A DNA stretch of 49,997 nt from a virus. The position numbers and the translations under genes were made by a program. The stretch covers positions 1 through 49,997 of IMG/VR virus record IMGVR_UViG_3300013094_000078, one strand, 5' to 3'. The notes under the pieces were generated by a model. That model was given only the letters and a program-made list of their open reading frames with translations, searched no databases and was not told where the DNA came from. Positions 1,938 to 34,779 of this stretch are shown here, piece by piece (the first letter of the stretch is position 1; every line of letters begins with the position of its first letter).

Positions 1938-1939
1938 GA

Positions 1940-1968: not shown

Positions 1969-1974
1969 ACACAT

Positions 1975-2139
1975 ATGAAAAATAAAAACACATACACAAA
2001 GTTCCAAGAAGCAGAAGATGCTGAAACAGCCTATGCTATGGTATTATCTGGGCAGTGGACAGTTGAAAGATTTGCTGAATGGTATGATCAAGTCAAGCAT
2101 ATTGAATACATGTATGCTACAGCAGATGAGAGCTTCTAA
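1975..2139 (+). CDS. Small phage protein, 54 aa, leaderless start
   Basis: A 54-residue acidic/aromatic protein that starts MKNKNTYTKFQEAEDAETAY and ends YATADESF. I do not recognise the family. The ATG falls on the predicted +1 of the promoter at 1940-1968 and has no room for a Shine-Dalgarno site. An alternative start is the internal ATG at 2038, which also lacks a strong site. The stop at 2137-2139 abuts the GTG start of the next gene, so the five to seven genes from here to 4306 look like one early operon. Confidence 0.65.
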   Translation: MKNKNTYTKFQEAEDAETAYAMVLSGQWTVERFAEWYDQVKHIEYMYATADESF

Positions 2140-2394
2140 GTGACAGAAGATGAACAATTAGCCTGGGACATATTAAGTACGCCTAACAATGCGGACTTTA
2201 AAGAGTACCGCAGAATGCACTATGCGACATGGCTAACTAAAGAACGCAAGGTATTATTAATATCTGATATGGAAACAGGTTATATTATTAACTGTATTAA
2301 TATGTTAGAACGATTAGAGCAAACAGATACCAAAGCCTACGAGGGCTTGATTAAAGAACTAAGAAAGCGAGGGAGTCGGATAAATGAAAACTAA
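2140..2394 (+). CDS. Small phage protein of unknown function, 84 aa
   Basis: An 84-residue charged, helical-looking protein with a GTG start directly after the stop of the upstream ORF. It has the stretch LTKERKVLLISDMETGYIIN and a basic C-terminus. It overlaps the next gene by 11 bases, a sign of translational coupling. No domain is recognised and no membrane segment or signal peptide is seen. Confidence 0.65.
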   Translation: MTEDEQLAWDILSTPNNADFKEYRRMHYATWLTKERKVLLISDMETGYIINCINMLERLEQTDTKAYEGLIKELRKRGSRINEN

Positions 2395-2731
2395 ATGGGA
2401 TTGGAATGGGCTAAGTGATTTACCTGATGTAAGTCAAGAAGCACTTAAGAACTATATCTTATATGCTCTACCACCAGGTAGTTTCTTAACCAGTTTGTTA
2501 AGCTGTGACCCCTGGACTGACGTTATCGCACGTGCTGATCATTGGAACAAAACACGTTTACAAGAATATCTAAACTGGTTACAGGAATTGGCTCCACCTG
2601 GTAGTTGGGGCAGTCAAGACATTGTTGCTGATTGGTTACGTAAAGGACCAGCATATGAAAAGTTCCAAAAGTCTATGACTTGGGAAATACTACAAGCAAA
2701 TGAATATGAATCAAAAGACTATGACTTCTAA
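2384..2731 (+). CDS. Phage protein of unknown function, 115 aa
   Basis: A 115-residue soluble protein rich in Trp and acidic residues, with the stretch YILYALPPGSFLTSLLSCDPW and a repeated PPGS (residues about 30 and 70). That style of small protein is common in T4-like marine phages, where its function is unknown. It overlaps its upstream neighbour by 11 bases and its downstream neighbour by 32, within the early operon from 1940. Confidence 0.7.
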   Translation: MKTKWDWNGLSDLPDVSQEALKNYILYALPPGSFLTSLLSCDPWTDVIARADHWNKTRLQEYLNWLQELAPPGSWGSQDIVADWLRKGPAYEKFQKSMTWEILQANEYESKDYDF

Positions 2732-2912
2732 ACAACCAAGTTGGGTTGAGGCACGTGAGGCTCTTCGTCGACATGTTGAAGAGCCTTTAGTGTTTGTTGG
2801 TGAAATGGGTGCCGATGGTGTCATTAATGGTCTGTTACCCAACGGTGAACCTTACGGTTGGTATAAACGTAGAGGAACTAAAGATACCAAGTTCAAAGGG
2901 CGCAAGGTATGA
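2700..2912 (+). CDS. Small basic phage protein, 70 aa
   Basis: A 70-residue protein with a basic end (GWYKRRGTKDTKFKGRKV). Several in-frame ATG codons lie at the start (2700, 2706, 2721), so the exact start is uncertain; the last reduces the overlap with the upstream gene. Its stop overlaps the next ATG as ATGA. No family is recognised. Confidence 0.6.
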   Translation: MNMNQKTMTSKQPSWVEAREALRRHVEEPLVFVGEMGADGVINGLLPNGEPYGWYKRRGTKDTKFKGRKV

Positions 2913-3064
2913 CATGGCAATATAATGGTGTAGATAAATTCAGCACCATACTTGCTTGGTGTTATCAGCATCTTGATATTAGTGATTGGGAAACTAACAT
3001 GAATGAAACGATTTGGTTCAAAGCTGAGCCTGCGTATACTATGTTTATGTTACGGTGGGGTTAA
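2909..3064 (+). CDS. Small phage protein, 51 aa
   Basis: A short ORF starting at ATG 2909 in an ATGA overlap with the upstream stop: MTWQYNGVDKFSTILAW, ending AYTMFMLRWG. Its last residues resemble the end of the next protein (ASMFALRWL), which suggests a small repeated family. The ATGA coupling and the coding-like composition support translation. Confidence 0.55.
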   Translation: MTWQYNGVDKFSTILAWCYQHLDISDWETNMNETIWFKAEPAYTMFMLRWG

Positions 3065-3065
3065 G

Positions 3066-3263
3066 TTGGATAACTATCTTAATATTACAGATGAAATATT
3101 TTGGCGTGCTGGATCAAGTTTTAGCCATAACGGAAAATACCCAACGCAAAAAGAAATAGAAAAACATTTTAACTTTTTAGTAGTTAGTTGTGGCGATGGA
3201 AAAATTACAATACAATTTAAGCATGACGCAGATGCTTCAATGTTTGCGTTAAGGTGGCTATAA
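3066..3263 (+). CDS. Small phage protein, 65 aa, TTG start proposed
   Basis: Starting at TTG 3066 gives a 65-residue protein beginning MDNYLNITDEIFWRAG and ending ASMFALRWL. The frame is open back to an ATG at 3003, but that would overlap the upstream gene by 62 bases and adds an unlikely Cys-rich N-terminus. A GGTGGGG sequence lies before the TTG. The end resembles that of the 51-residue neighbour. Function unknown. Confidence 0.55.
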   Translation: MDNYLNITDEIFWRAGSSFSHNGKYPTQKEIEKHFNFLVVSCGDGKITIQFKHDADASMFALRWL

Positions 3264-3523
3264 TGTACTACTGTGAATTTCCAGATGATAAAACTTTAAT
3301 ACGTGGTTACATTTACCCTAACAGAACTGTTGGTAGATACTTAGTTGTTAACCATATCGAACTCCCTTTACCGATTAGTTTTCAGGCACATACTATTGTC
3401 GCACTAACCCCTGGCACTAAAGATTTTTATTGGTATAAGCATAGAGAAAAACAGGATGTAATGTTAACCAAAGAAGAACAGCAAGAATTGTTGCTACAAA
3501 TATTAAAAAGTGAGACTTGGTAA
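3263..3523 (+). CDS. Phage protein of unknown function, 86 aa
   Basis: An 86-residue protein beginning MYYCEFPDDKTLIRGYIY. The ATG at 3263 overlaps the previous stop as TAATG; a GTG nine bases upstream is possible but less likely. Alternating hydrophobic stretches suggest beta structure in the first 50 residues and a Glu/Gln-rich helix at the end. The next gene starts on its stop in the same TAATG manner. Confidence 0.65.
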   Translation: MYYCEFPDDKTLIRGYIYPNRTVGRYLVVNHIELPLPISFQAHTIVALTPGTKDFYWYKHREKQDVMLTKEEQQELLLQILKSETW

Positions 3524-3906
3524 TGGACTTTACAATTGACCCAGCATACCTAACCAGTGTAGAGATTCGCGAAGAATGGAATGAGTATACTAAAAATGGT
3601 CGTGTGCCCACCAATGAAGAATTACTGCTGATTCTACAGGGCAAGGGAACTGTTACCTTAGGTAGATCAGAAGACCACCCAGAGTTTGCTAAACTACGTG
3701 AGCACCTAGGTGAACAGGGTTATATTGAGATACAACGTGGTTGGTGGAATGGTGATAGAGTTTTAAAACCATTTACACTCAATGGATTAAAGTTTAAGAT
3801 AGGCAAACAATTTAGTTGTGCTGGAGCAATGGGCACGCACTTTGCCGTTCGTGCCAAATATCCAGAACATTACAAGGATGAAGAAGATGATGAAACCATG
3901 GATTGA
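3523..3906 (+). CDS. Phage protein of unknown function, 127 aa
   Basis: Starts MDFTIDPAYLTSVEIREEW and ends in a very acidic tail (YKDEEDDETMD). The ATG at 3523 overlaps the upstream stop as TAATG. The middle (residues about 40-75) contains EDHPEFAKLREHLGEQGYI, which resembles a small winged-helix-like unit, but this is only an impression. It overlaps the phosphatase gene by 29 bases. Confidence 0.6.
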   Translation: MDFTIDPAYLTSVEIREEWNEYTKNGRVPTNEELLLILQGKGTVTLGRSEDHPEFAKLREHLGEQGYIEIQRGWWNGDRVLKPFTLNGLKFKIGKQFSCAGAMGTHFAVRAKYPEHYKDEEDDETMD

Positions 3907-4306
3907 AAATATTGGATTAAAGGAAGTCAGAGATGGATACCATCACGATGCTGGCTTCAACAGTATGCTAATCCAAATCGTAGATCCTGGTACAGAGTTT
4001 CCTAAGCCAAAATATCACTTCAAAGAAGTGCGTCAATTCTTCTTTTTAGATGTAGATGATAGTGATCATGATAAGTTTTATTTTGAAGCAGCTATTACCA
4101 ACGAAGACGCAAAGGGTATAGCTGAAGCATTACAACACGCATGGGACAATAGTATGAACGTAGTAGTACATTGTCATATGGGTGTTAGTCGTAGCGGTGC
4201 AGTAGCAGAAGTTGGTACCATGATGGGTTTTCGCGATGTAGGTAATTGGCGAGCACCTAATCCAATGGTCAAACGGAAAGTTATGCACTATTTAGGTTTA
4301 GTTTAA
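3878..4306 (+). CDS. Dual-specificity-type protein phosphatase
   Basis: A 142-residue protein with the cysteine phosphatase P-loop HCHMGVSRSG (C99 to R105, the CX5R signature) and a preceding Asp-rich loop (FLDVDDSDHDK) that could supply the general acid. It would hydrolyse phosphate from Tyr/Ser/Thr or from a small molecule. The open frame extends up to 3818, but ATG 3878 fits better with a CAAGG just before it and keeps the overlap with the upstream gene short. It closes the early operon; tRNA-Phe begins three bases after its stop. Phosphatases of this size occur in T4-like phages; the target is unknown. Confidence 0.8.
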   Translation: MKKMMKPWIENIGLKEVRDGYHHDAGFNSMLIQIVDPGTEFPKPKYHFKEVRQFFFLDVDDSDHDKFYFEAAITNEDAKGIAEALQHAWDNSMNVVVHCHMGVSRSGAVAEVGTMMGFRDVGNWRAPNPMVKRKVMHYLGLV

Positions 4307-4308
4307 AT

Positions 4309-4384
4309 GCTATCTTAGCTCATCTGGTAGAGCACCGGCCTGAAGAGTCGGGTGTGCTTGGTTCAAGTCCAAGAGGTAGCACCA
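4309..4384 (+). tRNA. tRNA-Phe(GAA)
   Basis: Acceptor GCTATCT/AGGTAGC, anticodon stem CCGGC/GTCGG with loop CTGAAGA, T-loop TTCAAGT, A discriminator and encoded CCA. It begins two bases after the phosphatase stop codon. Confidence 0.93.
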
Positions 4385-4457
4385 AAGTTTTAAAGTTTGG
4401 GAGAAAGCCGATACATTATGTATTCGAGGTTAGGAGAGATCGGCAAACCGCCCAACT

Positions 4458-4546
4458 GGAAGGTTATGTGATCTGGGATATCACCGCGCACTTGAAATGC
4501 GCTGGAGCCGAAAGGCCAGGAGTTCGATTCTGCCATCCTTCCGCCA
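4458..4546 (+). tRNA. tRNA-Ser(UGA)
   Basis: Acceptor GGAAGG/CCTTCC, anticodon stem GCGCA/TGCGC with loop CTTGAAA, long variable arm typical of serine, G discriminator and encoded CCA. The T stem has two mismatches. The 73 bases before it hold only a GCCGAT/ATCGGC pairing (4407-4412, 4439-4444), possibly a tRNA relic. Confidence 0.85.
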
Positions 4547-4589
4547 AAATTTAGGCAATAATGTTTTAAGTTAAAATTTGCGTATTCCG

Positions 4590-4597
4590 TATAAATA
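4590..4597 (+). promoter_or_regulatory. T4-late-type promoter TATAAATA
   Basis: A perfect TATAAATA 20 bases before the ATG of the HNH endonuclease, with a TAGGAG ribosome site between them. Confidence 0.55.
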
Positions 4598-4617
4598 ACT
4601 ATAGTAGGAGAACTAAT

Positions 4618-5214
4618 ATGCTATGTGATTATGGATGTGGTAAAGAAGCAAATCATACATTAAAAAACGGAAAACATTGTTGTAGTAAACGCCCAGCAGG
4701 ATGTGAAATTTTAAGAAAACAAAATTCAAAAGGGTTACTCAAAGCATACAACGAAGGTAGAAAAGGATATACATATAATCCAGCAAGTGCCTGGAGTAAA
4801 GGCAAATCATTGACCCCTAATGCTGTTATGTTTGTTGAGAATAGTTATTATTCAAACGAAATTATTAAACAAAGAATAGTTAAAGATAATTTATTAGATT
4901 ATTGTTGTTCTAAATGTGGTATTGATAGTTGGCAAAGTGAAACTATTGTATTAGATTTAGATCATATTAATGGGAATAATACCGATAATAGATTAGAAAA
5001 TTTAAGATATCTGTGTCCTAATTGTCATAGTCAAACTGATACTTACAAAGGTAGAAATAAAAATACAGGAAAACAAAAAATTAGTGACAAAAATCTCTTG
5101 ACAGCATATGAAAAATGTAGTAATATAAGACAAGCATTAATTGAAGTGGGTCTTGCTCCAAAAGGTGGGAACTATGAACGATTAAAAAGATTAATTGCAG
5201 GTATGGTGAAATAG
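4618..5214 (+). CDS. HNH homing endonuclease in tRNA array
   Basis: A 198-residue protein. Residues 1-30 form a small Cys cluster (CDYGCGK...CCSKRPAGC) that is shared with the endonuclease at 45362. Residues about 95-150 are an HNH nuclease domain with CSKCG, LDLDHINGNNTDNR, NLRYLCPNCHSQT; the two CxxC pairs bind a structural zinc and the DH and N/H residues are catalytic. The C-terminal 40 residues look like a helix-turn-helix DNA-binding tail. The last 18 bases of the gene, including its TAG stop, are the first 18 bases of tRNA-Leu. This is the same arrangement as at 1085. Family assignment is firm; the cut site would be expected in the tRNA region of phages lacking the gene. Confidence 0.9.
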   Translation: MLCDYGCGKEANHTLKNGKHCCSKRPAGCEILRKQNSKGLLKAYNEGRKGYTYNPASAWSKGKSLTPNAVMFVENSYYSNEIIKQRIVKDNLLDYCCSKCGIDSWQSETIVLDLDHINGNNTDNRLENLRYLCPNCHSQTDTYKGRNKNTGKQKISDKNLLTAYEKCSNIRQALIEVGLAPKGGNYERLKRLIAGMVK

Positions 5215-5281
5215 GTATACACAAGGCACTTAAAATGCCTCGGCGCAAGCCATGTCAGTTCGATTCTGACTACCTGCACCA
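5197..5281 (+). tRNA. tRNA-Leu(UAA), overlapping the HNH gene
   Basis: Acceptor GCAGGTA/TACCTGC, anticodon stem AGGCA/TGCCT with loop CTTAAAA, class II variable arm CGGCGCAAGCC, T arm GTCAG-TTCGATT-CTGAC, A discriminator and encoded CCA. Its first 18 bases are the end of the endonuclease gene. Confidence 0.93.
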
Positions 5282-5289
5282 AAGTAAAT

Positions 5290-5381
5290 CGAGGGTTGGG
5301 TGAGTTGGCCGAAACCAGCAGTTTGCTAAACTGTCGTACCAGAAATGTGTACCATCCGTTCGAATCGGATACCCTCGGCCA
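5290..5381 (+). tRNA. tRNA-Ser(GCU)
   Basis: Acceptor CGAGGGT/ACCCTCG, anticodon stem GCAGT/ACTGT with loop TTGCTAA, long variable arm, T arm ATCCG-TTCGAAT-CGGAT, G discriminator and encoded CCA. Confidence 0.93.
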
Positions 5382-5389
5382 AGTTTTAA

Positions 5390-5466
5390 GGGCCTATAGC
5401 TTAATTGGTTGAAGCAACAAACTCATAATTTGGAGATTCCTGGTTCAAGTCCAGGTGGGCCCACCA
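5390..5466 (+). tRNA. tRNA with CAU anticodon (Ile2 or Met)
   Basis: Acceptor GGGCCTA/TGGGCCC, anticodon loop CTCATAA, T arm CCTGG-TTCAAGT-CCAGG, A discriminator and encoded CCA. The body resembles bacterial Ile2 tRNAs as I remember them, so this may be the AUA-reading partner of the CAU tRNA at 796. Confidence 0.88.
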
Positions 5467-5469
5467 AAT

Positions 5470-5544
5470 CCGGTGTTAGTTAAATGGATATAACAGGGGA
5501 TTTCTACTCCCTAGTTGGGGGTTCGATTCCCTCACGCCGGACCA
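5470..5544 (+). tRNA. tRNA-Arg(UCU)
   Basis: Acceptor CCGGTGT/ACGCCGG, anticodon stem GGGGA/TCCCT with loop TTTCTAC, T-loop TTCGATT, A discriminator and encoded CCA. It reads AGA/AGG. Confidence 0.92.
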
Positions 5545-5817: not shown

Positions 5818-6027
5818 ATGCTAAAATATCAGTTATTATTCGTATTATTAATCACAGGCTGTGCTGTACAGCCCGCACCAGCAAAAACTATTAAACAAGT
5901 CGAAACTACATCAAACAAACCAGCGTACACATTGTACGTACCACCAGAAGAAATCTGGCCAGAAGATTATCAATCCCCGCCAAAAGTCTGTGCCAGTCCA
6001 TTTAGAGGAAGTATATTAGAAAGATGA
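5818..6027 (+). CDS. Small lipoprotein, 69 aa
   Basis: Starts MLKYQLLFVLLITGC: a basic-hydrophobic signal ending in the lipobox LITGC, so Cys15 should be lipidated and the protein anchored to a membrane facing the periplasm. The mature part is short, Pro-rich (PPEEIWPED, QSPPKVC) and has one further Cys. Its stop overlaps the cyclase start as ATGA, so the two are made together. It could be an outer-membrane spanin subunit or a partner for the periplasmic CHASE2 domain of the cyclase; the sequence does not decide between them. Confidence 0.75.
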   Translation: MLKYQLLFVLLITGCAVQPAPAKTIKQVETTSNKPAYTLYVPPEEIWPEDYQSPPKVCASPFRGSILER

Positions 6028-8075
6028 ACAAATTTAAAAAAATCCTAGTCAGTCCGTGGACTGCTCTCATTACACTTGCCCTTATCGTAGCTGTAGTATT
6101 CCAAGGACCTACATTTGTAGAGTCAGTTAGGCTTAGGTACTTTGACACACTTATTGCTGGCCAAAAGCCCACTCAAAATAATATCTATACAGTAAACATA
6201 GATGAAGCCACTATTGACAAATATGGTCAGTGGCCATTTAAGCGTGACATCTATGCTAATCTAATTGATCAGCTATACGCTCGCAACGCAGGCCTAGTTG
6301 TTTGGGACGTTATGATGCCAGAAAAGGATCGTCAGGGCGGCGATAGTGTATTAGCTTCAGTGTTACAAACACAACATAACGTTATTCTTACTAACATGCC
6401 CGCACAGGCCAATAAGAATATTCCTCGCAAACCAGGTAGTGCTGTAATTGGTGCGGACTATTTAGATACTATCATTAACTATCCAGGCATTATTGCCAAC
6501 ATTCCAGAATTAGAAAAAAATGCCGCAGGTGTCGGTATCGCCAACACACTACCAGAAGTAGATGGTGTTAATCGCAGACTACCATTGTTCGTAGCTAGTA
6601 ACGGTAGTTTGTATCCAAGCGTGCCTTTAGAAGTCTTACGTGTATTAGTAAACACCTCAACATTCCAAGTTAAACTAAATGCCAACGGCGTTGAGAAAAT
6701 GCGTGTTCCTGGCTTTAATCCAATAGCCACAGATAGTTTAGGTCGTATCTGGGTAGATTGGTCACAGAAAGACACACAGGTATCCGCAGTTAACTTACCC
6801 AAAGACTTTGGTGGTGCTGTGGTCATTGTAGGCCTAAGTGCCGCAGGCCTAGGTAATCCAGTTCCAACAAGTATTGGCAGTATTTGGCCACAGGACATGC
6901 AGGCCGCTGTTATTGGTACATTGGCCAATAATGTAAGTATCGAACGACCAGACTGGGCACCTGGTGCTGAGCTATTGGCATTGGTATTAATTAGTTTAAT
7001 CATCTTAGCCTTAAGTCGCTGGGTATATGTGGGTTTAGGTGTAGGCGTTGTATTGCTTGCTAGTTTAGTGCCAGCGAGTATGTATATCTTCGCACACTAT
7101 AAATTCCTAGTTGATGCTATTGTACCTGTAGCTGGTGGTGTACTAGTTATGCTACATGCTTATGGTGTTAAGTTCATCAGCGAATTCCTACAGAAACAGG
7201 CAATTAAGAAACAGTTTGCCGGCTACTGCTCTAAAGAAGTAGTAGAGATGCTACAAAAAGATCCAGAGCTTATTAAACGCGGCGTGCGCAAAGACGTAAG
7301 TGTTATGTTCAGTGACCTACGTGGCTTTACTCCAATCGGCGAACACTACGGTGATGATGTTGCAGGACTTACAAAGTATATGAATGGCTATATGGATAGT
7401 ATTAGTCGTCCTATTATTGATAATAACGGTATGGTTATTAAGTATGTAGGTGATGCAAGTATGCACATTCACGGTGCGCCAATCGATGATGTTAATCACG
7501 CACACACTATCGTTAAAGTTGGATTAGAAATGTTAGATGCGGTTGATGCCTACACCAAAGAAATGGAAGCACAAGGTCTACCACCAGCGGCCATGGGCTG
7601 GGGTTGTAACACAGGTATCGGTTTCATTGGTGAAATGGGTAGCACAGAACGACACGGCTATGACATCTTAGGTGACATGGTTAGTACTGCGGCACGACTA
7701 GAAGCACGTTGTAAAGCATATGGTGTACTATGTATTATTGGTGCTGAAACATACAACCGTACCAAGGATGACTTCTTCTACTTGTTACTAGATAACTTAC
7801 AGCCAAAAGGCAAGACTGTAGCAGACTTAATCTACACAGTATTGCGTACTCGAGGTGCAGACTATACTAAAGATAAAGAAGCACATGACGAAATGCACGC
7901 ACTATATAAGGCTAAGAAGTTTGATGAAGCTGCCAAGATGTGCAGTCAGATGAAAGGACTATTTGGTGGACAAATGGACAAGTACTATAAGATTTGGATT
8001 GAACGCTGTGAGTTTATGAAACAACAAGATCTACCAGATGACTGGAATGGCGAATTTGTGGCCCACGAGAAATAA
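6024..8075 (+). CDS. CHASE2-domain class III adenylate/guanylate cyclase
   Basis: A 683-residue membrane protein in the order of bacterial CHASE2 cyclases: one membrane segment (about 10-28), a CHASE2 sensor (about 35-305, FDTLIAGQKP...VVWDVMMPEKD), membrane segments at about 313-385, then a cyclase homology domain (about 420-600). Class III enzymes make cAMP or cGMP. Metal Asp residues are present: FSDLRGFT (D431) and KYVGDA (D477). K473 and the Asp before LGD (HGYDILGD) are the ATP-type pair. The transition-state Asn, normally in VNxAARLE, is Ser554 (VSTAAR), while Arg558 is kept, so activity may be low or changed. A sensor cyclase in a phage is very unusual; it would inject a second messenger into the host. 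It is coupled to the lipoprotein and followed by a carboxypeptidase, all fitting an envelope-sensing role. Confidence 0.9.
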   Translation: MNKFKKILVSPWTALITLALIVAVVFQGPTFVESVRLRYFDTLIAGQKPTQNNIYTVNIDEATIDKYGQWPFKRDIYANLIDQLYARNAGLVVWDVMMPEKDRQGGDSVLASVLQTQHNVILTNMPAQANKNIPRKPGSAVIGADYLDTIINYPGIIANIPELEKNAAGVGIANTLPEVDGVNRRLPLFVASNGSLYPSVPLEVLRVLVNTSTFQVKLNANGVEKMRVPGFNPIATDSLGRIWVDWSQKDTQVSAVNLPKDFGGAVVIVGLSAAGLGNPVPTSIGSIWPQDMQAAVIGTLANNVSIERPDWAPGAELLALVLISLIILALSRWVYVGLGVGVVLLASLVPASMYIFAHYKFLVDAIVPVAGGVLVMLHAYGVKFISEFLQKQAIKKQFAGYCSKEVVEMLQKDPELIKRGVRKDVSVMFSDLRGFTPIGEHYGDDVAGLTKYMNGYMDSISRPIIDNNGMVIKYVGDASMHIHGAPIDDVNHAHTIVKVGLEMLDAVDAYTKEMEAQGLPPAAMGWGCNTGIGFIGEMGSTERHGYDILGDMVSTAARLEARCKAYGVLCIIGAETYNRTKDDFFYLLLDNLQPKGKTVADLIYTVLRTRGADYTKDKEAHDEMHALYKAKKFDEAAKMCSQMKGLFGGQMDKYYKIWIERCEFMKQQDLPDDWNGEFVAHEK

Positions 8076-17273: not shown

Positions 17274-18308
17274 ATGAATACTAAACGCATAGGCTTTGCT
17301 TGTAAGTGGATCGATCGTCCTGATCAGGTCCTTGGGATCAAACCAACAGATGATGCTAAACAGTACAACACTGGCACAACAACTGTGGCTTGGTTAAATC
17401 GTCAAACACGCGATGTAGCTGAACAGCGGCTATGGGACCTAATGGTACAGAACATTGAGTCTACTCGCAAACTAATTGAAAGAGTAGGTAATCTAGATGA
17501 AACACTTCGTATGGTTCGCATTAGTAGCGACATCTTACCTGTTTATACTGAGTCTAGCTGGCGTTATTATTGGCAATTGGCTGACGTCAAAAGGTATATG
17601 GAAACAGCCTTTAGAGCAGTTGGTGAATTGGCTCGTATTCGTAATGTGCGTCTCAGTTTTCATCCAGGTCAGTTCTGCGTTTTGGCTAGCGATAATGACG
17701 ATATTGTCTCCAGGTCCATAGAAGAATTTGAGTATCATGCGGACATGATCCGTTATATGGGTTACGGCCAACGATTCCAAGATTTTAAATGCAACGTGCA
17801 TATTGCAGGTCGCCGTGGTGCGCAAGGCATCATTGATGTACTACCTAGACTAAGTGTTGAAGCACGCAACACACTTACTATTGAAAATGAGGAAATGAAA
17901 CATGGGTTGGATGATTGTCTTGTGCTTAGTACTGCTGGCGTTCCTATTGTTCTCGATGTCCATCATCACTGGGTACGTGAAGGGGAATACATCAAACCGA
18001 TGGATGACCGTGTCCAACGTGTTATGGAGAGCTGGCGTGGTCTGCGCCCTACTTTACATTATAGTGTTAGTCGTGAAGATTATCTTGTCGCTCATGACAA
18101 TACTCTAGCACCTAACTACGCAGAGTTATTAGAGTCAGGTCATAAGAAAAGTAAACTGCGTGCGCACAGTGACTTCTATTGGAATACTGCTTGTAACGAT
18201 TGGGCATTATCATTCTTAGAGTCATTTGACATCATGTGCGAGAGCAAGGGCAAGAATCTAGCAAGTTTTAGTTTATATGAACGTGCTCGAGAATTGGAGT
18301 TAGTATAA
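17274..18308 (+). CDS. uvsE: UV damage endonuclease UvdE
   Basis: A 344-residue TIM-barrel protein of the UvdE/UvsE family: it starts RIGFACKW, then VRISSDILPVYTESSW, RLSFHPGQFCVLASDN, NVHIAGRRG, TIENEEMKHGLDDCL, VPIVLDVHHHWV, LHYSVSRE and LRAHSDFYW. The His, Glu and Asp residues of these strands bind the metal cluster. The enzyme nicks DNA 5' to cyclobutane dimers and 6-4 photoproducts. The length is as usual for the family. In a phage it would repair sunlight damage. Its mRNA is probably leaderless. Confidence 0.92.
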   Translation: MNTKRIGFACKWIDRPDQVLGIKPTDDAKQYNTGTTTVAWLNRQTRDVAEQRLWDLMVQNIESTRKLIERVGNLDETLRMVRISSDILPVYTESSWRYYWQLADVKRYMETAFRAVGELARIRNVRLSFHPGQFCVLASDNDDIVSRSIEEFEYHADMIRYMGYGQRFQDFKCNVHIAGRRGAQGIIDVLPRLSVEARNTLTIENEEMKHGLDDCLVLSTAGVPIVLDVHHHWVREGEYIKPMDDRVQRVMESWRGLRPTLHYSVSREDYLVAHDNTLAPNYAELLESGHKKSKLRAHSDFYWNTACNDWALSFLESFDIMCESKGKNLASFSLYERARELELV

Positions 18309-22272: not shown

Positions 22273-22893
22273 ATGCCAAATTTAGTGCCAGTAGTAGTAG
22301 AACGTACATCAGACGGTGAACGTAGTTATGATCTATACAGTCGTTTGCTTAAAGACCGTATTGTAATGTTAGACACTGATGTTAGTGAACATTCAGCTAG
22401 TTTAATTGTGGCACAATTGCTGTTCTTAGAAGCAGAAAATTCAGATAAAGATATCTTGCTGTACATTAACAGTCCGGGCGGTAGTGTAACAGCAGGCTTG
22501 GCAATCTATGACACCATGCAGTTTATCAAGCCAGATGTAAGTACTATTGTAGTTGGACAAGCATGTAGTATGGGTAGCTTTCTAGCTAATGCAGGTGCGC
22601 CTGGTAAGCGATTTGTCTTGCCAGAAAGCCGTACAATGATTCACCGTGTGAGTTCAGGTACTCCCGGTACACGAGGTTCAGTACATGTACAAGAACTACA
22701 GTTTGAAGATGCTGTGCGTAGCATGGAAGAAAGCAAGCGTTTAAATGAACGCCTAACTCAACTATATGTGCGTCACAACACTGCTGGCAAGGGCTATGAT
22801 GAGCTGTTTGAAACTATGAAGTTTGATACATTCCTATCTGCAGAAGAAGCTGTTGCCTATGGTCTAGCAGATGAAATTATCACTAAACGATAA
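22273..22893 (+). CDS. clpP: ClpP-like protease subunit
   Basis: A 206-residue protein with the full ClpP triad: S99 in [15 protein letters not shown]124 in [10 protein letters not shown] and D185 in [18 protein letters not shown]. ClpP forms two stacked heptameric rings and degrades proteins delivered by ClpX or ClpA. The stretch between H124 and D185 is about 12 residues longer than in E. coli, so the handle region differs. No ClpX/ClpA gene is in the window, so it would have to use a host unfoldase. AAAGGAAA precedes the start, and it overlaps the radical SAM gene by 23 bases. Together with the tmRNA it could degrade tagged products. Confidence 0.92.
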
Positions 22894-24196
22894 CTTCTGT
22901 AGTAGTCCTTGGTTCCATATTAGAATCAATCCTAGCGGTGATTATATGCCCTGCCGCTGGGATTTTTCAATGACCACATCACCACATAATATCAGAAATA
23001 CCAGTATATTAGAATATATGAACTCTGATATTATGCGTAAATTACGATTAGATTTATTAGAAGGACAGGTCACCGCAACTTGCGTAAGTTGCAAGAATGA
23101 AGACCAGTACAATAAAGTCAGCGGGCGTCAACGTCAACTACTAAAAAGTGCAATTAATATCCAAGAGTTTGACAAGACATTTTGTGCTAGTCCGCATTGG
23201 GCACAATTTGAACACTCATACAATAACCAGGGCCACACAGACAGCATGCCGGTCGATTTACAAATTGATCTTGGTAATACCTGTAATAGTAGTTGCATTA
23301 TGTGTATGCCAATGTATAGCAGTAGACTTGCTGTTGACTATGTTAAATTACAAAAAATAGAACCTGCATTGTTTAATTTACCTGCACTAACAGGCAATTG
23401 GACCGATGACCCAACTTTAGTAGACAAGTTTATCAATGAGTTAGCTGAAATCCCAAATATTAGATACATACATTTCTTGGGCGGCGAAACCTTGTATCTT
23501 AAAAGTTTCTACGATATCTGTAACCGTTTAATAGATATGGGATTAGCCAAAGATATCAGCATAGGGACTACTACTAACTGCACAGTCTACACACCAGAAT
23601 TAGAACAGGTGTTAAAAGCATTTAAACATGCTCACCTAGGATTAAGTATAGAAAGTTTACATTCTATTAATGATTATGTACGTTGGCCTAGCAATATTGC
23701 TACTGTTAAAAAAAATATTGAAAAGTTTGTTAATCTTAGAAATACCATGGACCTACAATTGTCCTTGCGTATCACTCCTAGCAATCTATCTGTGTTTTAT
23801 ATAGATACATTATTTGAATTTATGATTGAGAATTCAATCATAGCTGAAAGTTGTAATCTGTTAACTAGTCCTAGTTGCTTGAGAATAGAACTGTTACCAA
23901 AAGATATATTAAATACTATTTTATCTAGATTAAATGAAATTATAAAAAAATATAATATATCGGACTCCAGTGACTCGCTGGTTAATAGAAGAAATGAAAA
24001 TATTCGAGAGCAAGTCATTGATAAAGTTATTATTGAATACAGAGACACTTTGCAGAATCTACAGATTCCAGATAATGTAGAGCAAGAACGCCATAACCTT
24101 GTTAGATTTTTAAAAGCATTCGAAAGTTTACGCAATAACAGCATATTGGATTATCTACCAGAATATGAAGAATTTCTTAGAAGCTACGGCTACTAA
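22871..24196 (+). CDS. Radical SAM enzyme with N-terminal SPASM/twitch-like Cys region
   Basis: A 441-residue protein. The N-terminus has Cys groups of the auxiliary cluster type ([23 protein letters not shown], then CVSC at about 72-75). The radical SAM core follows with CNSSCIMC (C138, C142, C145), GGETLY and the barrel. Proteins with this layout modify peptides or proteins by radical chemistry. The order, auxiliary region first, is seen in phage-encoded twitch radical SAM proteins. The start lies inside clpP, and the gene overlaps the small beta-rich protein gene by 32 bases, so the two are likely partners. Substrate unknown. Confidence 0.85.
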
Positions 24197-24545
24197 ACCC
24201 ACTCTAAAGTTAGAAGTTGTCTTACGAGTTAAACCTGTAGGCAATGTTAAAGCACGGCTTCGAATCAATGATGCTACTTGGATAACTGAAGTTACTAAAG
24301 AAGAAACATTTATACATGAAATCGGTCTTACTATACCAGTGGATCTGCAGATACAAATTGATCGAAAACACCCTGAGGCGTTAGAAGTAAGTGTAGATAT
24401 TGATGGTCATGCTATATTGCCTATATATTACAAAAGTGCCGGAATATCGACATGTTACATAAACACCAATGATACTTGGAAATTAAATATACCTAACTTC
24501 TATAGTTGGTATCATGAAATTATAGGACAAGGATGGATTATTTAG
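24165..24545 (+). CDS. Beta-rich protein A of a three-member family
   Basis: A 126-residue beta-rich protein ending in TNDTWKLNIPNFYSWYHEII. The end matches those of the proteins at 26025 (NNTLRLIFTTPFALWHTQ) and 48126 (GRTELSFKTPIWMWWCEL): a polar turn, a strand, TP or IP, aromatics and Trp. This family looks like a carbohydrate-binding-type beta sandwich. It overlaps a radical SAM gene on each side (32 and 13 bases). It may be the substrate, the substrate adaptor, or a lectin-like virion protein. Confidence 0.6.
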   Translation: MKNFLEATATKPTLKLEVVLRVKPVGNVKARLRINDATWITEVTKEETFIHEIGLTIPVDLQIQIDRKHPEALEVSVDIDGHAILPIYYKSAGISTCYINTNDTWKLNIPNFYSWYHEIIGQGWII

Positions 24546-26059
24546 ATATTATTTTTTGTTCTATACCTTTTAGGGATTTAGATCAAGTTTATAGTGCTCC
24601 TGCTATATTAAAAGCGGTAGCAATATCTAATGGCTATACTTGTAAAACCAAGGACTTTGGGTTAGATCTATTAGAATTGTGCGGCAATAATACTGAACAG
24701 TTTGATCGCGTACAAAATTATTTTGCCAATGCTGATAATGTTTTAACAACAGAAGAACAATTAATATTAGATCAATTTTATCAAACAGTTATTAATTATT
24801 TTAAAACTAATCCTAGCAAATATATCGGCATTAGTATATTTTCTATATTTACACATAAAGCCACAGCCGAATTACTTAATTTAATTAAAGATAATAATAT
24901 AAATGCTAAGATTATTGTCGGTGGTAGGGGAGCCAAGGTTCCAATAAACATCACAGCCAATGCTATACTAAAACCAAAAGGACTAGAAAAAATATTAGAA
25001 TTTGGTAATTTATTAAAGAACAGAAAACTTGCAGACTATGTGGTGATCGGCGATGGTGAGGATGCTGTATTAGATATTCTTCAGGGTACTAGTATTAAAA
25101 CTAATTATAATTCTGACACTTTCAATTACCCATTACCTGATTATTCAGATTATGAATTCGATAAGTACCTTTGGAATGATGGCCAGGTTATGTTTCCTAT
25201 CACTGGTAGTAAAGGATGTGTGCGTGATTGTGATTTCTGCGATGTTAAATTTCAATTTGGTCGTTACAAATACCGTAGTGGTAGTAATATCGCCGACGAG
25301 ATGATCTACATAGCCGAAACATTAGGATTTCGTAAATTTCAATTCACTGATAGCTTAGTCAATGGTGGGTTGAAAATTTTAGAAGAATTCTGTACAATTA
25401 TTGCTGACTACAATGATAGAAACCCAGATAAAATAATAACTTGGAATGGACAATATATCTGTAGACCTGCTGATCAGATGCCAGAGAGATTATATCCATT
25501 AATGGCACGTGCAGGGGCACATGGACTAACTATCGGGGCAGAAAGTGGTAGCGATCATGTACTTGATGTTATGAATAAAAAGACAGATGTTGATGCGTTA
25601 TATTACGAATTATCTCAATTTCAAAAACATAATATTACATGCGTACTATTAACTTTTGTAGGACATTGGGCAGAAACGCATACTGATTTTGTTAAACATT
25701 GTCGTATGATAGTGAATATATTGCCTTATGTTAGATCAGGCACTATTTCGGCATTAAGTTTAGGATTTCCAGCGGCTATGCTTGAAGGTACTCCTGCTAT
25801 GAATCATGTCGCTGAAAAAACAATTCAGTTATCTGATTTTAATCGAGACTTTGTTTGGTTTTCTGAAACTAACCCTACTAATACATTTAAAGAAAGAATA
25901 TTACGCAGAATAATTTTACACAAATTAGCATCTAACTTACAAATTCCTATCATTGACGAATGGAATTTTCTTAACGTAGTAAATGTTATTGTTAAACAGC
26001 ATTCTGAGGAAATTAACAAATTTTATGAAAACTGCTCAAGAAACCCTAGATCAATTTGA
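24533..26059 (+). CDS. B12-binding-type radical SAM enzyme
   Basis: A 508-residue protein with an N-terminal Rossmann-like part of the B12-binding type (residues about 1-190, IGISIFSIFTHKATAELLNL, KIIVGGRGAK, YVVIGDGEDA) and a radical SAM core with C229-VRD-C233-DF-C236, ITGSKGCVRDCDFCD and TIGAESGSDHVLDVMNKKT. Such enzymes methylate or methylthiolate unactivated carbons, or rearrange rings. The usual DxHxxG cobalamin motif is not evident, so B12 use is open. It is flanked by two of the beta-rich proteins, overlapping both. Confidence 0.82.
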   Translation: MDYLDIIFCSIPFRDLDQVYSAPAILKAVAISNGYTCKTKDFGLDLLELCGNNTEQFDRVQNYFANADNVLTTEEQLILDQFYQTVINYFKTNPSKYIGISIFSIFTHKATAELLNLIKDNNINAKIIVGGRGAKVPINITANAILKPKGLEKILEFGNLLKNRKLADYVVIGDGEDAVLDILQGTSIKTNYNSDTFNYPLPDYSDYEFDKYLWNDGQVMFPITGSKGCVRDCDFCDVKFQFGRYKYRSGSNIADEMIYIAETLGFRKFQFTDSLVNGGLKILEEFCTIIADYNDRNPDKIITWNGQYICRPADQMPERLYPLMARAGAHGLTIGAESGSDHVLDVMNKKTDVDALYYELSQFQKHNITCVLLTFVGHWAETHTDFVKHCRMIVNILPYVRSGTISALSLGFPAAMLEGTPAMNHVAEKTIQLSDFNRDFVWFSETNPTNTFKERILRRIILHKLASNLQIPIIDEWNFLNVVNVIVKQHSEEINKFYENCSRNPRSI

Positions 26060-27386: not shown

Positions 27387-27767
27387 ATGAGGATCGCTAT
27401 ACTTGCACTATTAGTGTCATTGTCTGCCATTGCAGACGAACCAAAAGAAATGTACATGCCAAATGACAGTGGCGGCTACATTGTATTAACCCTAGAAGAT
27501 TGTCAAGTTAAAACTTCTGATTATCCATATAGGGCCTATGCCACAGAGTCAGAGCCGGGGCCTGCACTACATGAAGGTTGCTGGACTAGATTTACCGATC
27601 CAGAGTATGATAAGTTTGCTGAAAGTATGGTCAGTACCTATTGGGGTCCGGGCTTGATGGCTAGTTTTAGACAGAGATTGTTTAGTCCAAATAAGGCACG
27701 TTGGACCGATGATAAGAGCCCAATGACTATACGTGCACCAGAAGTAGTAGTAAAACCCAATACTTAG
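27387..27767 (+). CDS. Secreted protein of unknown function, 126 aa
   Basis: A signal peptide, MRIAILALLVSLSAIA, is followed by DEPKEMYMPNDSGGYIVLTL and a mature part with Cys pair (about residues 34 and 59), so it is likely periplasmic with a disulfide. The end is APEVVVKPNT. GGAGGA precedes the start, and TGTAAATA at 27328-27335 could be a weak late octamer. The stop lies about 20 bases before the tmRNA. Family not recognised. Confidence 0.65.
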   Translation: MRIAILALLVSLSAIADEPKEMYMPNDSGGYIVLTLEDCQVKTSDYPYRAYATESEPGPALHEGCWTRFTDPEYDKFAESMVSTYWGPGLMASFRQRLFSPNKARWTDDKSPMTIRAPEVVVKPNT

Positions 27768-27789
27768 ATAAGTAAAGTATTAAAGAAAA

Positions 27790-28162
27790 CGACGTAAACC
27801 ATAAAGTAAGGCATGTTGGACGGCGGTTCGATTCCGCCCAGGTCCACCAAAAGCACACTTTTGCCGTAGCCAAGCCGAGGGAGATATCCTTCATAAAAGA
27901 ACTGGAATAGAAAAATTTTGCCGGACCAGTTTAAGTGTGCTTTTGATGGGCCTGACCAGGTTTCGACAGCGTGAGATAGGATAATGGCGTCCGACAAGAA
28001 AGTCGTAAAAATCAAACTCAAGTAAATGCAAAAGCAAATACTAAAGACGTAGTTAAAGTATCTATGGGTCGTGGCTTCCGCTTCGCTCGTGGTACTGAAG
28101 CTGTAGCAGCCTAAGAAACTGCAACGTCCGGGGCAACTATGCCTTGTTACCCAAACTAGTGG
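27790..28162 (+). ncRNA. ssrA: Circularly permuted (two-piece) tmRNA
   Basis: The acceptor piece comes first. It has T arm GGCGG-TTCGATT-CCGCC (822-838 of 27xxx), acceptor strand CAGGTCC and encoded ACCA ending at 27849. The coding piece starts GGGCCTG at 27948, pairs with that strand and gives the G3-U70-type pair for alanylation; TTTCGACAG follows. GTTGGAC (27815-27821) pairs with GTCCGAC (27989-27995) as helix 2. The linker between the pieces closes as AAAAGCACACTT/AAGTGTGCTTTT. The tag frame begins at resume codon GCA 28028 and stops at TAA 28112, 28 codons starting AKANTKDVVK and ending FARGTEAVAA. tmRNA rescues stalled ribosomes and marks proteins for ClpXP. The exact 5' end is not fixed. 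Confidence 0.92.
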
Positions 28163-28187
28163 AACCCACTTCGGTGGGTTTCTTTTT
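28163..28187 (+). terminator. Terminator after tmRNA
   Basis: AACCCAC/GTGGGTT with a TTCG tetraloop followed by TCTTTTT. The next promoter begins three bases later. Confidence 0.9.
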
Positions 28188-28189
28188 GG

Positions 28190-28218
28190 TTGACTTATTA
28201 ATAAGTTGAGTGTATAAT
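28190..28218 (+). promoter_or_regulatory. Sigma70-like early promoter
   Basis: TTGACT (28190-28195), 17 bases ending TGAGTG, TATAAT (28213-28218). TTGGAG precedes the helicase start. Confidence 0.88.
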
Positions 28219-28247
28219 AAGGTTATTAACAATAAATTGGAGTGGGA

Positions 28248-30458
28248 ATGAAATATTATTGTGTAATGTATTGGTACACAACCAAACTCAATCGTACAGT
28301 ACATCAAGTCAAAAATGGATCAGCTAGACGTAAGGCTAATAGTGCCTACGAAGCTGCCGAAATTCGAATTAAAGAACAATTAACAGCAGCTAACAGTGCT
28401 GATCCTTACGAAATTCTTTGGGTAGAAGACGTTAGCGATATTTGTGAAACTGGCGAGAAACATGAAAGTTTGAGTAGGCTACGCCAATTGGAACAAAGTG
28501 TACTACATCCAAAACAAAAGCGTATGGGTATGTGGGTTCCTAGTGATAACACAGCCAGCGAATGGTTCTTTGATCCAAAACAAGAAAGCGTAGACAATGT
28601 AGTTAATGTTGGTAAACAACTTATCAACGAAGTTAGACACGGTGTCATGGCATTGGAAGACTTTCCTGCTTTTCCATATCAACAAACTATTGTCGATTGG
28701 GCTGTGGATCAATTTAAGACTAAAGATGATATTTTAGTTAATGCTATCATGCGAGCTGGTAAGTGTTTTATGACTTATGAAATTGCTCGAGCTATGAAAG
28801 CTAAAACAATTTTAGTAGTTACAGCCAAAGTAGGTGTTAACGATAGCTGGAGTGCGCTATTACCTAACGGTGAAGAAAGTCATGTTAACTACGCCAACTG
28901 GCAATATCACGATTACAAACGAGCTAAAACTCTAGCATTTACACAACCAGTAAATGTAGTGTTTGTCAGTTTACAATTTATCAACAAACATTTTGATAAT
29001 CCTAACAGCATGCTTAAAAGTATTTTTAAGACTGAATGGGATTTGGTAGCATTTGATGAACAGCATTATGCAACTACTACAGATAATACACAGCGTCTTT
29101 GGGATAAACTAAAGTTTGGTAAGAAACTTGAACTAAGTGGTACACCGTATAAGACAGTATTGAGTGGTCGCTATGCGCAAGACAGCATTTATAACTTTGA
29201 CTATGTTGAAGAACAGGTATTGCGTAAACAAGCCTTGTTGACTCCAGATACAATATTAGCCAAGGCATTTAAATATCGTGCAGATATTAACTATGCTATG
29301 ATTCATGTGTCAGATAAAGTCAAAGCACTGCTAGGCGAAGATGGATTTACAATTCCAAAATTGTTTGCAACCGAGCAAGGCCAATTTAAAAACACTATGG
29401 CTGTAAACGAGTTCTTAACTCATGTAGTTTCTGCATATAAAACTCCTCCTGCACGTTTTAACACGTTTGCAGACAAGTTAAGTCGACATGCCTTATGGGT
29501 ATTACCAGACGATGTTAGTGCGATTGGTGCAATGGAAAAAATGTTAAAGTCGCATCCATTCTTTGGCAAGCGTCGTATTATTAACGCTAGCGGTAAAGGT
29601 GTTAAGGACATTCAAACAGTTAAAGATTTAATCCAGCGCGACACTATCAAAAGCGGTGTTGGTACAATTACATTGACGTGTGGTCGTTTCTTAGAAGGTA
29701 CCAGTATCCCAGAATGGTGGAGTGTGCATCAAATGAACAACGACAAAAGTGCCGCAGACTATTTCCAAGGCAGCTTCCGTTGTAAGACTCCTTGGAAGGA
29801 CGGAGACAAACAGAGTGTAGTTGTATTCGATTACACTCCAGAACGTTTTGTCAGTGTAGTTTATCAGCACTGTGAACAAGTAAGTACAATTACAGGCATA
29901 CCTACACAACAGTTAATCACACAGTGGTTGGATGTCAGCGAAGTGTATGACTATACTGGGAATACTTGGAACATATTAACCGGCGAAGATATCAGTCAAC
30001 AATTCTTGAACGATATCAATAACTACATGGATCGTGTTAATAATGCTATTAACCGTGCAGGTATTACTGGTGAAATTGTTACACTATTGCAAGATCTTAA
30101 GAAAGATAGTAATCAAGTTAGTGCAACTAGTCAGTTAAATCAAAATGATGTGCTAACTGGTGCTAACAAGAAACGTATCAATCCCTTGCCAGGCACTAAA
30201 AAGAATCAGCCGACGGATCCTGTAGAAGACACAGTACAGCGTATACGTTACGCATTGAAGCAGGTTTATGAATTGATTAATATTGCTTGGTCAGAAGGCT
30301 GGGAAATCAAACGTATTGAAGATATTGTTAATAGTAACGACTTTGAATTAGTTAAAGAAATTACAGGTATTACTCCTAAAGAATGGTTTAAAATTTCGCC
30401 AGCAATCAATGTAACAAATATGAATCGTGCAATTGGGCAATATAATGCTTTACAATAA
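28248..30458 (+). CDS. SF2 helicase/translocase, restriction-subunit-like
   Basis: A 736-residue SF2 protein: Walker A-like MRAGKCF (K172), a DEAD-type box FDEQHYA (D270), motif III LSGTPYK, a second RecA-like domain with TLTCGRFLEGTSIPEW and motif VI YFQGSFRCKTPW. This arrangement resembles the motor subunits of type I and III restriction systems and Z1-like helicases. No nuclease domain is obvious. The N-terminal 160 residues are unknown and the tail (about 620-736) is Asn/Lys-rich. ATG 28248 is preferred; a GTG lies six bases upstream. It overlaps the methyltransferase-like gene, which itself overlaps an SPPY methyltransferase. Confidence 0.82.
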   Translation: MKYYCVMYWYTTKLNRTVHQVKNGSARRKANSAYEAAEIRIKEQLTAANSADPYEILWVEDVSDICETGEKHESLSRLRQLEQSVLHPKQKRMGMWVPSDNTASEWFFDPKQESVDNVVNVGKQLINEVRHGVMALEDFPAFPYQQTIVDWAVDQFKTKDDILVNAIMRAGKCFMTYEIARAMKAKTILVVTAKVGVNDSWSALLPNGEESHVNYANWQYHDYKRAKTLAFTQPVNVVFVSLQFINKHFDNPNSMLKSIFKTEWDLVAFDEQHYATTTDNTQRLWDKLKFGKKLELSGTPYKTVLSGRYAQDSIYNFDYVEEQVLRKQALLTPDTILAKAFKYRADINYAMIHVSDKVKALLGEDGFTIPKLFATEQGQFKNTMAVNEFLTHVVSAYKTPPARFNTFADKLSRHALWVLPDDVSAIGAMEKMLKSHPFFGKRRIINASGKGVKDIQTVKDLIQRDTIKSGVGTITLTCGRFLEGTSIPEWWSVHQMNNDKSAADYFQGSFRCKTPWKDGDKQSVVVFDYTPERFVSVVYQHCEQVSTITGIPTQQLITQWLDVSEVYDYTGNTWNILTGEDISQQFLNDINNYMDRVNNAINRAGITGEIVTLLQDLKKDSNQVSATSQLNQNDVLTGANKKRINPLPGTKKNQPTDPVEDTVQRIRYALKQVYELINIAWSEGWEIKRIEDIVNSNDFELVKEITGITPKEWFKISPAINVTNMNRAIGQYNALQ

Positions 30459-31629
30459 CATCAGCAAAGTTATTCAAATGATTCCTCTCTTTACTCGAGA
30501 AGGCACTCAAAACATTTTGAGTGTAGAACATGCACATCATGTTGTGTCAATGATCAATAAGAAGGATCTTGCTGACCCTAATACAACCTATCAAGATCCA
30601 CAATGTGGTACAGGGCTTATCATGCTGGTGTTGGCAGAAACTCTCATGGACACGCTGGCAACAGCAATCCCCAATGAGCAAGACCGTCTGAATCATATCT
30701 TTACTAATCAATTATTTTTAAGTGACATCGACAGCACACAGTACCGTGTGGCACGTGCTAATATTCTACGTGCTGTTGGGGATAGAACATTTACAGTTAA
30801 TGTAGCACAGGCTGATTGTTTTGCTAATACACGCAGAACTAACTATACAATTAGTTCAATTGATTTTGAAACTACAAACGAATTTGTTCCGCAATACCTA
30901 CAACAATCAAGCAATGTTATTGTTGTAACACGAGCTAACAAACACAGTTACGAAGGTCGTAACATTACAGATATTAATACCTATAGATTTTTAGGACTAG
31001 CACAAAGTCTAGTGCCTATTTGTATTATGTATTTTAAGTCTGGTAAAAAAACAACCACTGTAGACTTTACTGATGGTGAAAGAACTGTTACAATTAATAA
31101 TCCTACGTTCCTACCCGGACGTGACCTAGACGGTTACTTGTATGCTAATGAAGTTTTAAAGTTGGGTTTTAAAGGATACACAGCCAATTACGGTACTATT
31201 AGTCGAGGTGTTACTGTTAATAATCAAGGTCGTGTGCCAGTTATTTTTGGCGCAGGCGAAAAGAACAGCAGATTTGGTGAAATTATTAAAGTAAGTAAAA
31301 AGATTGTATCAGACCGTGATGGATTGGGTAAACATAAACTAGTTGTTAGCAAGAATGGTAATAGAGGTAGAAGAAGTGTTATCAAGTATGCAGGTCCAGA
31401 ATATGCTATAGGATACACAGCATTATGGATTGAAGTTGCAGATCAAAAAGAGTTCGACAAAATTAATGAAATTTGGGAAGCCGAGGCTTGCTATGATAAA
31501 TTAATACGTATCCTGAAAGAAACTAGCCCAGCAAATGGCACTGAATTTTGGAAGTTAGTTCCTAAGATGGAAAATTTAAAGCAGGTCAAGGCAATCTATG
31601 AGCGTTACTACAAATCAAACAATAATTAA
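30445..31629 (+). CDS. N6-methyltransferase-like protein lacking NPPY
   Basis: A 394-residue protein with the SAM-binding motif I YQDPQCGTGLIML (D51 to G57), the acidic LSDIDSTQYRVARANIL and a QADCF motif III, as in gamma-class N6-adenine methyltransferases of type I and IIG systems. At the place of motif IV, usually NPPY/F, it reads VIVVTRANKHSY, so the catalytic motif is missing and the protein may only bind SAM or DNA. The last 150 residues could recognise DNA. It starts inside the helicase gene and its end overlaps the next by 32 bases. Confidence 0.7.
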   Translation: MLYNNISKVIQMIPLFTREGTQNILSVEHAHHVVSMINKKDLADPNTTYQDPQCGTGLIMLVLAETLMDTLATAIPNEQDRLNHIFTNQLFLSDIDSTQYRVARANILRAVGDRTFTVNVAQADCFANTRRTNYTISSIDFETTNEFVPQYLQQSSNVIVVTRANKHSYEGRNITDINTYRFLGLAQSLVPICIMYFKSGKKTTTVDFTDGERTVTINNPTFLPGRDLDGYLYANEVLKLGFKGYTANYGTISRGVTVNNQGRVPVIFGAGEKNSRFGEIIKVSKKIVSDRDGLGKHKLVVSKNGNRGRRSVIKYAGPEYAIGYTALWIEVADQKEFDKINEIWEAEACYDKLIRILKETSPANGTEFWKLVPKMENLKQVKAIYERYYKSNNN

Positions 31630-32764
31630 TTATCACAACTATCTATGCCAACAGTGGGGATATACCCCATCTGATGTAATGAGCACAGGATATGAAGCAT
31701 CAATGCCTAGATTGCGAGCTTTGAGTAAAGAAGTATGGTTAGCCGCAGATGAAGCAGGGCGTCAAGCAATCGAAGATGAAGTATTTGATATCTATCGTAA
31801 CACTAATATCTTACCTATTCATTATTATAATTTAGAAGGGTGTGAACAGCTAATTTATGAATTAGCTAGTAAGAAAAAATCAGTAGAAGGTCACACAATT
31901 AATGTAGGCAATAATGAAGGATTAACGTTGGGTCGTTTCTGGTTTGAAAACATGCAAGATGCGTATACCAGAACTGACAAAGAAGTTAGCCTACGTGGTC
32001 GTTTTAATAACGATGTTAAACTAAAACGTGCAATTAACTTATGTTATAAACATAGAGATGAAGGTAGTGATGCTGTCATTCCTAAGAATCTACGCAGAGC
32101 ATTTGATCTAGTCAGTGGTGGTAGTATTCAAAATTTTAAACCCATGAATGCCCGAGCTATTTGGGAATATATTTGTCCAACATTATTCGGCCGTGTTTTA
32201 GATTTTAGTTCAGGTTATGGCGGTCGTATGATGGGTGCTATGACATCAAACATGCGTTATCATTATACAGGTATTGATCCAAATACTAAAACTTATAATG
32301 GTTTGGTGGCCATGGGTGAACTACTAAATGAATGTAATCAAGGTAGTGGATATGAAATGCATCACTTGCCAAGCGAAGACTTTGTTCCAGAGCCAGGTAG
32401 TTATGACTGTGCTTTTAGTAGTCCACCATATTTCAATTTAGAAACATACAGCGACGAAGATACACAATGTATGAACCGTTGTTCAAACTTGGACGCTTGG
32501 TTCCAATTGTATGTAGAACCTACGCTTAATATGTTGCATACCGCACTAGACAATGGTGCTATCTATGCTGTGAATATTGCAGACTACAAAATGGGTAAAG
32601 ATCAATTTAAGATTGTTGATCAATGGAAAGAGTTGAGCAAAAAAGCTGGCTTTGAATATCAACACACTGTTAAGATGATGCTAAATGTTCGCCCAGGTCT
32701 AGGCAACGGTAAGAAACAAAACGGTTTCAAATATGAAGGAATTTATATCTTCAAAAAGACTTGA
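31598..32764 (+). CDS. DNA methyltransferase with SPPY motif
   Basis: A 388-residue protein with motif I VLDFSSGYGGRMMGA, an acidic YTGIDPN and the catalytic SPPYF (S275 to Y278), the form typical of N4-cytosine methyltransferases, though some N6-adenine enzymes also use it. The N-terminal 180 residues are not recognised and could bind DNA or the partner proteins. It is the last gene of the helicase operon and ends on the groES promoter. It could protect phage DNA from host restriction. Confidence 0.82.
   Translation: MSVTTNQTIINYHNYLCQQWGYTPSDVMSTGYEASMPRLRALSKEVWLAADEAGRQAIEDEVFDIYRNTNILPIHYYNLEGCEQLIYELASKKKSVEGHTINVGNNEGLTLGRFWFENMQDAYTRTDKEVSLRGRFNNDVKLKRAINLCYKHRDEGSDAVIPKNLRRAFDLVSGGSIQNFKPMNARAIWEYICPTLFGRVLDFSSGYGGRMMGAMTSNMRYHYTGIDPNTKTYNGLVAMGELLNECNQGSGYEMHHLPSEDFVPEPGSYDCAFSSPPYFNLETYSDEDTQCMNRCSNLDAWFQLYVEPTLNMLHTALDNGAIYAVNIADYKMGKDQFKIVDQWKELSKKAGFEYQHTVKMMLNVRPGLGNGKKQNGFKYEGIYIFKKT

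Positions 32765-32854: not shown

Positions 32855-34779
<1,925 letters not shown>

Follow-up and report, generated by a model that had tools for sequence, protein, structure and literature searches.

The window, a stretch of 49,997 bp that is the whole of one IMG/VR virus record, carries a permuted tmRNA gene in which the 3' acceptor half, with its CCA, precedes the 5' half. ARAGORN calls a permuted tmRNA at 27757-28205 on the + strand, with the predicted tag AKANTKDVVKVSMGRGFRFARGTEAVAA. Searches with the Rfam models for permuted tmRNAs, which an earlier note on this DNA had recommended, gave two scores above gathering. RF04321 matches positions 27790-28114 with 102.2 bits (gathering threshold 47, E=7e-19), and the beta_tmRNA model, RF01850, recovers the same tmRNA with 89.7 bits (gathering threshold 84). 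The proposal in that note of a phage-borne permuted tmRNA is therefore borne out.

The acceptor (3') piece at 27790..27849 (+), supported by RF04321, ARAGORN and the sequence, comprises a helix-2 strand and a T arm, followed by the acceptor strand CAGGTCC (27839-27845) and by ACCA (27846-27849), which contains the encoded CCA. The 5' piece at 27948..28160 (+), whose 3' end is approximate, is supported by ARAGORN, Rfam and covariation in the acceptor stem. It begins with GGGCCTG (27948-27954), which pairs with CAGGTCC, and continues with GGTTTCGAC, the mRNA-like region and a distal part. The third pair of the acceptor stem is G-U and corresponds to G3-U70, the alanine identity pair. Between the two pieces lies a segment (27850..27947, +) that is closed by a 12-base inverted repeat (AAAAGCACACTT at 27849-27860 and AAGTGTGCTTTT at 27933-27944) and that, by analogy with other two-piece tmRNAs, would be cut out on processing. 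An intrinsic terminator is located 3' of the tmRNA at 28161..28187 (+).

The tag reading frame (28028..28114, +) consists of 28 codons and a TAA stop codon. It is open after the resume codon, encodes the core VVKVSMGRGFRF and, as called by ARAGORN, ends in the hydrophobic residues AVAA; the same frame is kept in relatives. The earlier note had described this frame with its basic middle, which we find to be aromatic as well, and had placed the CCA end, the start of the 5' half, the G-U pair and the inverted repeat where they indeed occur.

Among the 118 distinct phage relatives listed, the acceptor stem covaries at pair 4 (C-G or G-C) and pair 5 (C-G, A-T or G-C), with 98-100% pairing, and G3-U70 is kept in 116; the IMG/VR scan pattern behind these relatives fixed some other acceptor positions and left pairs 4 and 5 free. 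The permuted tmRNA is thus confirmed, and the gene appears to be an intact two-piece tmRNA of a large, probably jumbo, phage. It shares with the two-piece tmRNA of betaproteobacteria (RF01850, and more generally RF04321) the permuted order, the acceptor stem with G3-U70, the T arm, GGTTTCGAC, the GUAAAUGC resume context and the terminator. However, the window gene is carried by a phage, and its tag has 28 residues with a conserved core, whereas the betaproteobacterial tags are of the ten-residue ANDERFALAA type.

Other genes of the window include an array of 13 tRNA genes found by ARAGORN at 38-5544 (with a weaker Rfam tRNA match at 1833-1905), a CHASE2 sensor fused to an adenylate/guanylate cyclase domain at 6024-8075 (PF05226, PF00211), and a UvdE-type UV-damage endonuclease at 17274-18308 (PF03851). 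Two radical SAM proteins, one with a SPASM domain and one with a weak B12-binding match, are encoded at 22871-26059, between the clpP gene described below and the tmRNA. Right after the tmRNA terminator, a cassette at 28242-32764 encodes a ResIII-type helicase of 738 aa, a 400-aa protein and a methyltransferase-like protein of 388 aa. The same three genes lie directly behind a tmRNA of class B (defined below) in L122 and are also present in L123-L125, where no tmRNA was detected. One possibility is that the cassette is a mobile island, restriction- or defence-like in kind, with a habit of inserting next to tmRNA genes.

Permuted tmRNAs are more widespread in phages than the earlier note supposed in regarding them as mainly a feature of bacteria and organelles. 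The permuted tmRNA pattern matches at least 120 IMG/VR stretches, and PMC9004378 counts 53 two-piece structures in phage genomes by 2021, mostly from marine or aquatic settings. The stress laid on tag length was likewise excessive, given that tmRNA tags of 8-35 residues are already known (PMC8012679). Neither the permutation nor the length of the tag is therefore new by itself.

What distinguishes the window tag is its sequence. Among the matches listed, ARAGORN predicts short tags of 10-15 residues in 91 cases. Long tags, of 22-31 residues, account for approximately one-fifth of the ARAGORN tags in the same set, and these share sequence. They form a family of 22-33 amino acids with recurring cores. 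Class A tags have the form ANADTFDFSAMSFTGNTV...FALAA, class B tags follow A[NK]xxTF[EK][YF]...ALAA, and the window tag represents class C, which has two looser relatives in which IRFSAR replaces GFRFAR.

When all of IMG/VR was scanned with a degenerate DNA pattern for the window core, KVSMGRGFRF, 24 other stretches were found. All 24 prove to be tmRNA tags: 19 are called by ARAGORN and five belong to tmRNAs with diverged 5' motifs, for which a reading as protein genes was considered and rejected. Within IMG/VR, the class C core is thus confined to tmRNA tags. Viral stretches with the class A/B tag pattern number at least 120. Species genomes of bacteria and archaea, 257 Gb in all, yield three matches to it, all in one Helicobacter assembly, which are probably due to chance. 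In this test with the class A/B pattern, the long tags are thus restricted to phages.

The cores also evolve as if the peptide matters. Synonymous change prevails: pN/pS is 0.11 in class C (from five distinct nucleotide sequences and 12 codons), 0.14 in class A and 0.41 in class B, where the motif is short. The variable columns fall mostly at third codon positions. These patterns favour the predicted reading frame and speak for selection acting on the tag peptide. An origin of the core in a phage protein was sought and rejected. A tblastn search of 50,697 phage records gave no match for the window tag and only matches at E=9 for class A, PHROGs and Pfam yielded no significant matches, and a relaxed search of the tag loci returned only tags and noise.

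Approximately 5 kb upstream of the tmRNA, the window carries a phage clpP gene (22273..22893, +; PF00574, 214.5 bits). Its 206-aa product can be aligned over the full length with ClpP structures in the PDB, and these alignments reveal an insertion of ~10 residues in the handle region. The Ser/His/Asp triad positions are conserved, and the motifs GQACSMG, MIH and KFDTFLSA are kept. The protein falls under the curated NCBIfam cut-offs (NF001368, 248.5 versus 249; TIGR00493, 237.7 versus 308.6) and, judged from its sequence, is a divergent ClpP.

The position of this gene is a consistent feature of class C. Each of the 12 class C contigs that were tested, which span 50-329 kb, has a full-length clpP on the same strand 1.3-4.9 kb upstream of the tmRNA. 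A uniform, independent model assigns this placement a probability of ~10^-21, a figure that is overstated because the phages are related. The position is kept although the intervening genes change, even where the clpP belongs to a different clade (L134/G010). Downstream of the tmRNA, the window encodes a phage groES (Cpn10; 32855..33145, +; PF00166, 110 bits) and a phage groEL (33157..34779, +; PF00118, 253.5 bits; phrog_5725). In class C relatives with a long enough flank, this pair again follows the tmRNA, and one gene order is repeated among them: clpP, variable genes, tmRNA, variable genes, groES, groEL.

Other parts of a Clp protease were sought in 36 related tmRNA-bearing phage contigs. 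A full ClpP is encoded in 18 of the 19 class B/C contigs versus one of the 16 with short tags, a Clp ATPase in 12 of 19 versus one of 16, and ClpS in 15 of 19 versus one of 16; kinship among the phages and the size of their genomes both confound this association of tag class with Clp genes, and the Fisher tests applied to it count related phages as independent. The ATPase is ClpA-like, with TIGR02639 as its best family (835-885 bits, short of the equivalog cut-off, 993). All eight ClpA proteins examined have both Walker A motifs, the pore loops KYRG and GYVG, and an IGF loop, the motif by which Clp unfoldases dock on ClpP. Neither clpA nor clpS was found in the window, which is a fragment of a genome. 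Because SmpB was found in none of the 36 contigs, that of the host would be needed.

The association has exceptions. One phage has a long tag and neither a full ClpP nor a ClpA (G020), another has a short tag and both proteins (G033), and the class C contig G010 encodes a ClpP that lacks the handle insertion. A further exception is PA5oct, in which ClpA, ClpP and ClpS are encoded but no tmRNA scores above the cut-off of the standard model. Strict co-evolution of tag class and ClpP clade was rejected, because G010 has this other type of ClpP and the class B contigs G003 and G021 have the insertion type. At 27 of 91 loci, short-tag phages carry another ClpP-like gene, which is shorter and follows the tmRNA at a distance of 0.8-3.9 kb. 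Its product has 190 aa, and the gene is always on the same strand as the tmRNA (for example, in L286, L288 and L291). Genes of the ClpP family thus neighbour phage tmRNAs in two separate and independent arrangements, upstream in class C and downstream in the short-tag phages.

The genes flanking the tmRNA, clpP on one side and groES-groEL on the other, suggest a phage-run pathway that tags and destroys proteins. The earlier note had raised, as speculation from a single sequence, the idea that a long tag could alter what happens to the proteins that carry it. That idea is now better supported, because the core is conserved, is phage-restricted where tested, and is linked to phage clpP, clpA and clpS and to groES-groEL. 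The reading we prefer, with a probability of about one-half, is that of a phage trans-translation system that borrows the SmpB of its host and feeds its tag to a phage ClpAP.

In such a system, the precursor would be transcribed, the intervening segment removed, and the two pieces held together by pairing in the acceptor stem and helix 2. Host alanyl-tRNA synthetase would read G3-U70, and host SmpB would join the RNA for loading into stalled ribosomes. Ribosomes that stall during infection would thereby be freed, and the 28-residue phage-specific tag would be appended to their products. The aromatic and basic core VVKVSMGRGFRF, together with the hydrophobic AVAA end, would then act as a degron for phage ClpA-ClpP, such that stalled and incomplete proteins are delivered to the phage's own protease. 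The adjoining groES-groEL would round off a phage protein quality-control island. What we observe is the anatomy of the gene, the conservation of its tag and the genetic linkage to clpP and groES-groEL; we infer processing, tagging, the use of host SmpB and a tag that is read by phage ClpAP in place of host proteases.

A stronger version proposes an orthogonal pathway: a phage-only degron would be read by phage ClpA-ClpP under modulation by phage ClpS, and host SspB/ClpXP would not read it. This proposal is tentative, and we give it less credence. For the preferred reading, there is a precedent in the Mollicutes, which evolved a longer ssrA tag that is read by Lon (PMC9382460). The exceptions and confounding factors described above count against it. 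The precedent's source provides another point to the contrary, as ClpS reduces the action of ClpA on ssrA tags. Moreover, in E. coli rescue outweighs degradation in importance (PMC8012679).

This last fact agrees with a role in rescue only, in which the tag extension would mark proteins for something other than proteolysis: a phage protein might bind or sequester them through a β-hairpin, or they might bind to the chaperonin. The conserved cores do resemble a strand-turn-strand arrangement (DVVKVSM-GRG-FRFA and GEVTVKA-NKG-IRFSA), some tags end in TFA, FAV or VLA rather than LAA, and groES-groEL lie downstream of the tmRNA. However, most class C tags end in the degron-like AVAA or ALAA, and the linkage to clpP exceeds what such a role would lead one to expect. 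This explanation, the foremost of the alternatives, is unlikely.

Next in order, and also improbable, is an ordinary tmRNA whose long tag is a relic of its lineage, has no special recognition and is degraded by host ClpXP as other ssrA tags are, with clpP and groEL as coincidental cargo of a large phage. Tags of comparable length are known, as noted above, the contigs are related, and jumbo phages without tmRNA have been described that encode ClpP, ClpA, ClpS and chaperonins (PMC7824862, PMC6102473). Against this stand the pN/pS values of 0.11-0.14 in the tag extension, a core seen in IMG/VR solely in tmRNA tags, and the constancy of the clpP site while the genes between change and even when the clpP is of another clade (L134/G010). 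Least probable is a working tmRNA whose aromatic-rich core sends proteins not to ClpXP but to another protease of the host, with Lon, as in Mesoplasma, the likeliest candidate. In its favour, the tags of each of the three classes abound in F, Y and V with a β-strand-like alternation, and the core presumably resembles the aromatic Lon degron of β-galactosidase. Against it, the clpP beside the tmRNA in every one of the 12 class C contigs is left unexplained, and the tags still have A-A-like ends typical of ClpX and ClpA degrons.

The preferred reading, delivery to a phage ClpAP, has partial counterparts in known systems. Marine phages, including the OM43 methylophage Melnitz and pelagiphages, also bear permuted tmRNAs; the Melnitz gene differs in being under glutamine riboswitch control, and the available part of the report describes neither an extended tag family nor a clpP linkage (PMC9004378). 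The long ssrA tag of Mesoplasma florum is likewise a lengthened tag that goes with a switch of protease, but it is bacterial, uses Lon instead of Clp, and is unrelated in sequence. Jumbo phages PA5oct and Atu_ph07 encode ClpP (61% and 53% identical, respectively), ClpA and ClpS. The presence of these Clp proteins has been noted in two papers, neither of which mentions a tmRNA (PMC7824862, PMC6102473), and PA5oct has none above the cut-off of the standard model, whereas in the window clpP is linked to a tmRNA. Open-licence papers were not found to describe the long-tag family or the tmRNA-clpP linkage.

The window tmRNA belongs to a family with long, conserved tags that is phage-restricted where tested, and it is situated within a putative phage protein quality-control island. 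Phage tmRNAs have usually been treated as curiosities without a known purpose. A conserved, phage-restricted tag that is linked to phage Clp and GroEL genes leads to the testable claim that the phage changes the destination of stalled proteins. This would rank among the few known cases outside the Mollicutes in which a tmRNA tag and a protease change together, and the family offers new candidate degron-protease pairs. If the orthogonal pathway exists, then the phage would decide what becomes of the products of stalled ribosomes in the infected cell.
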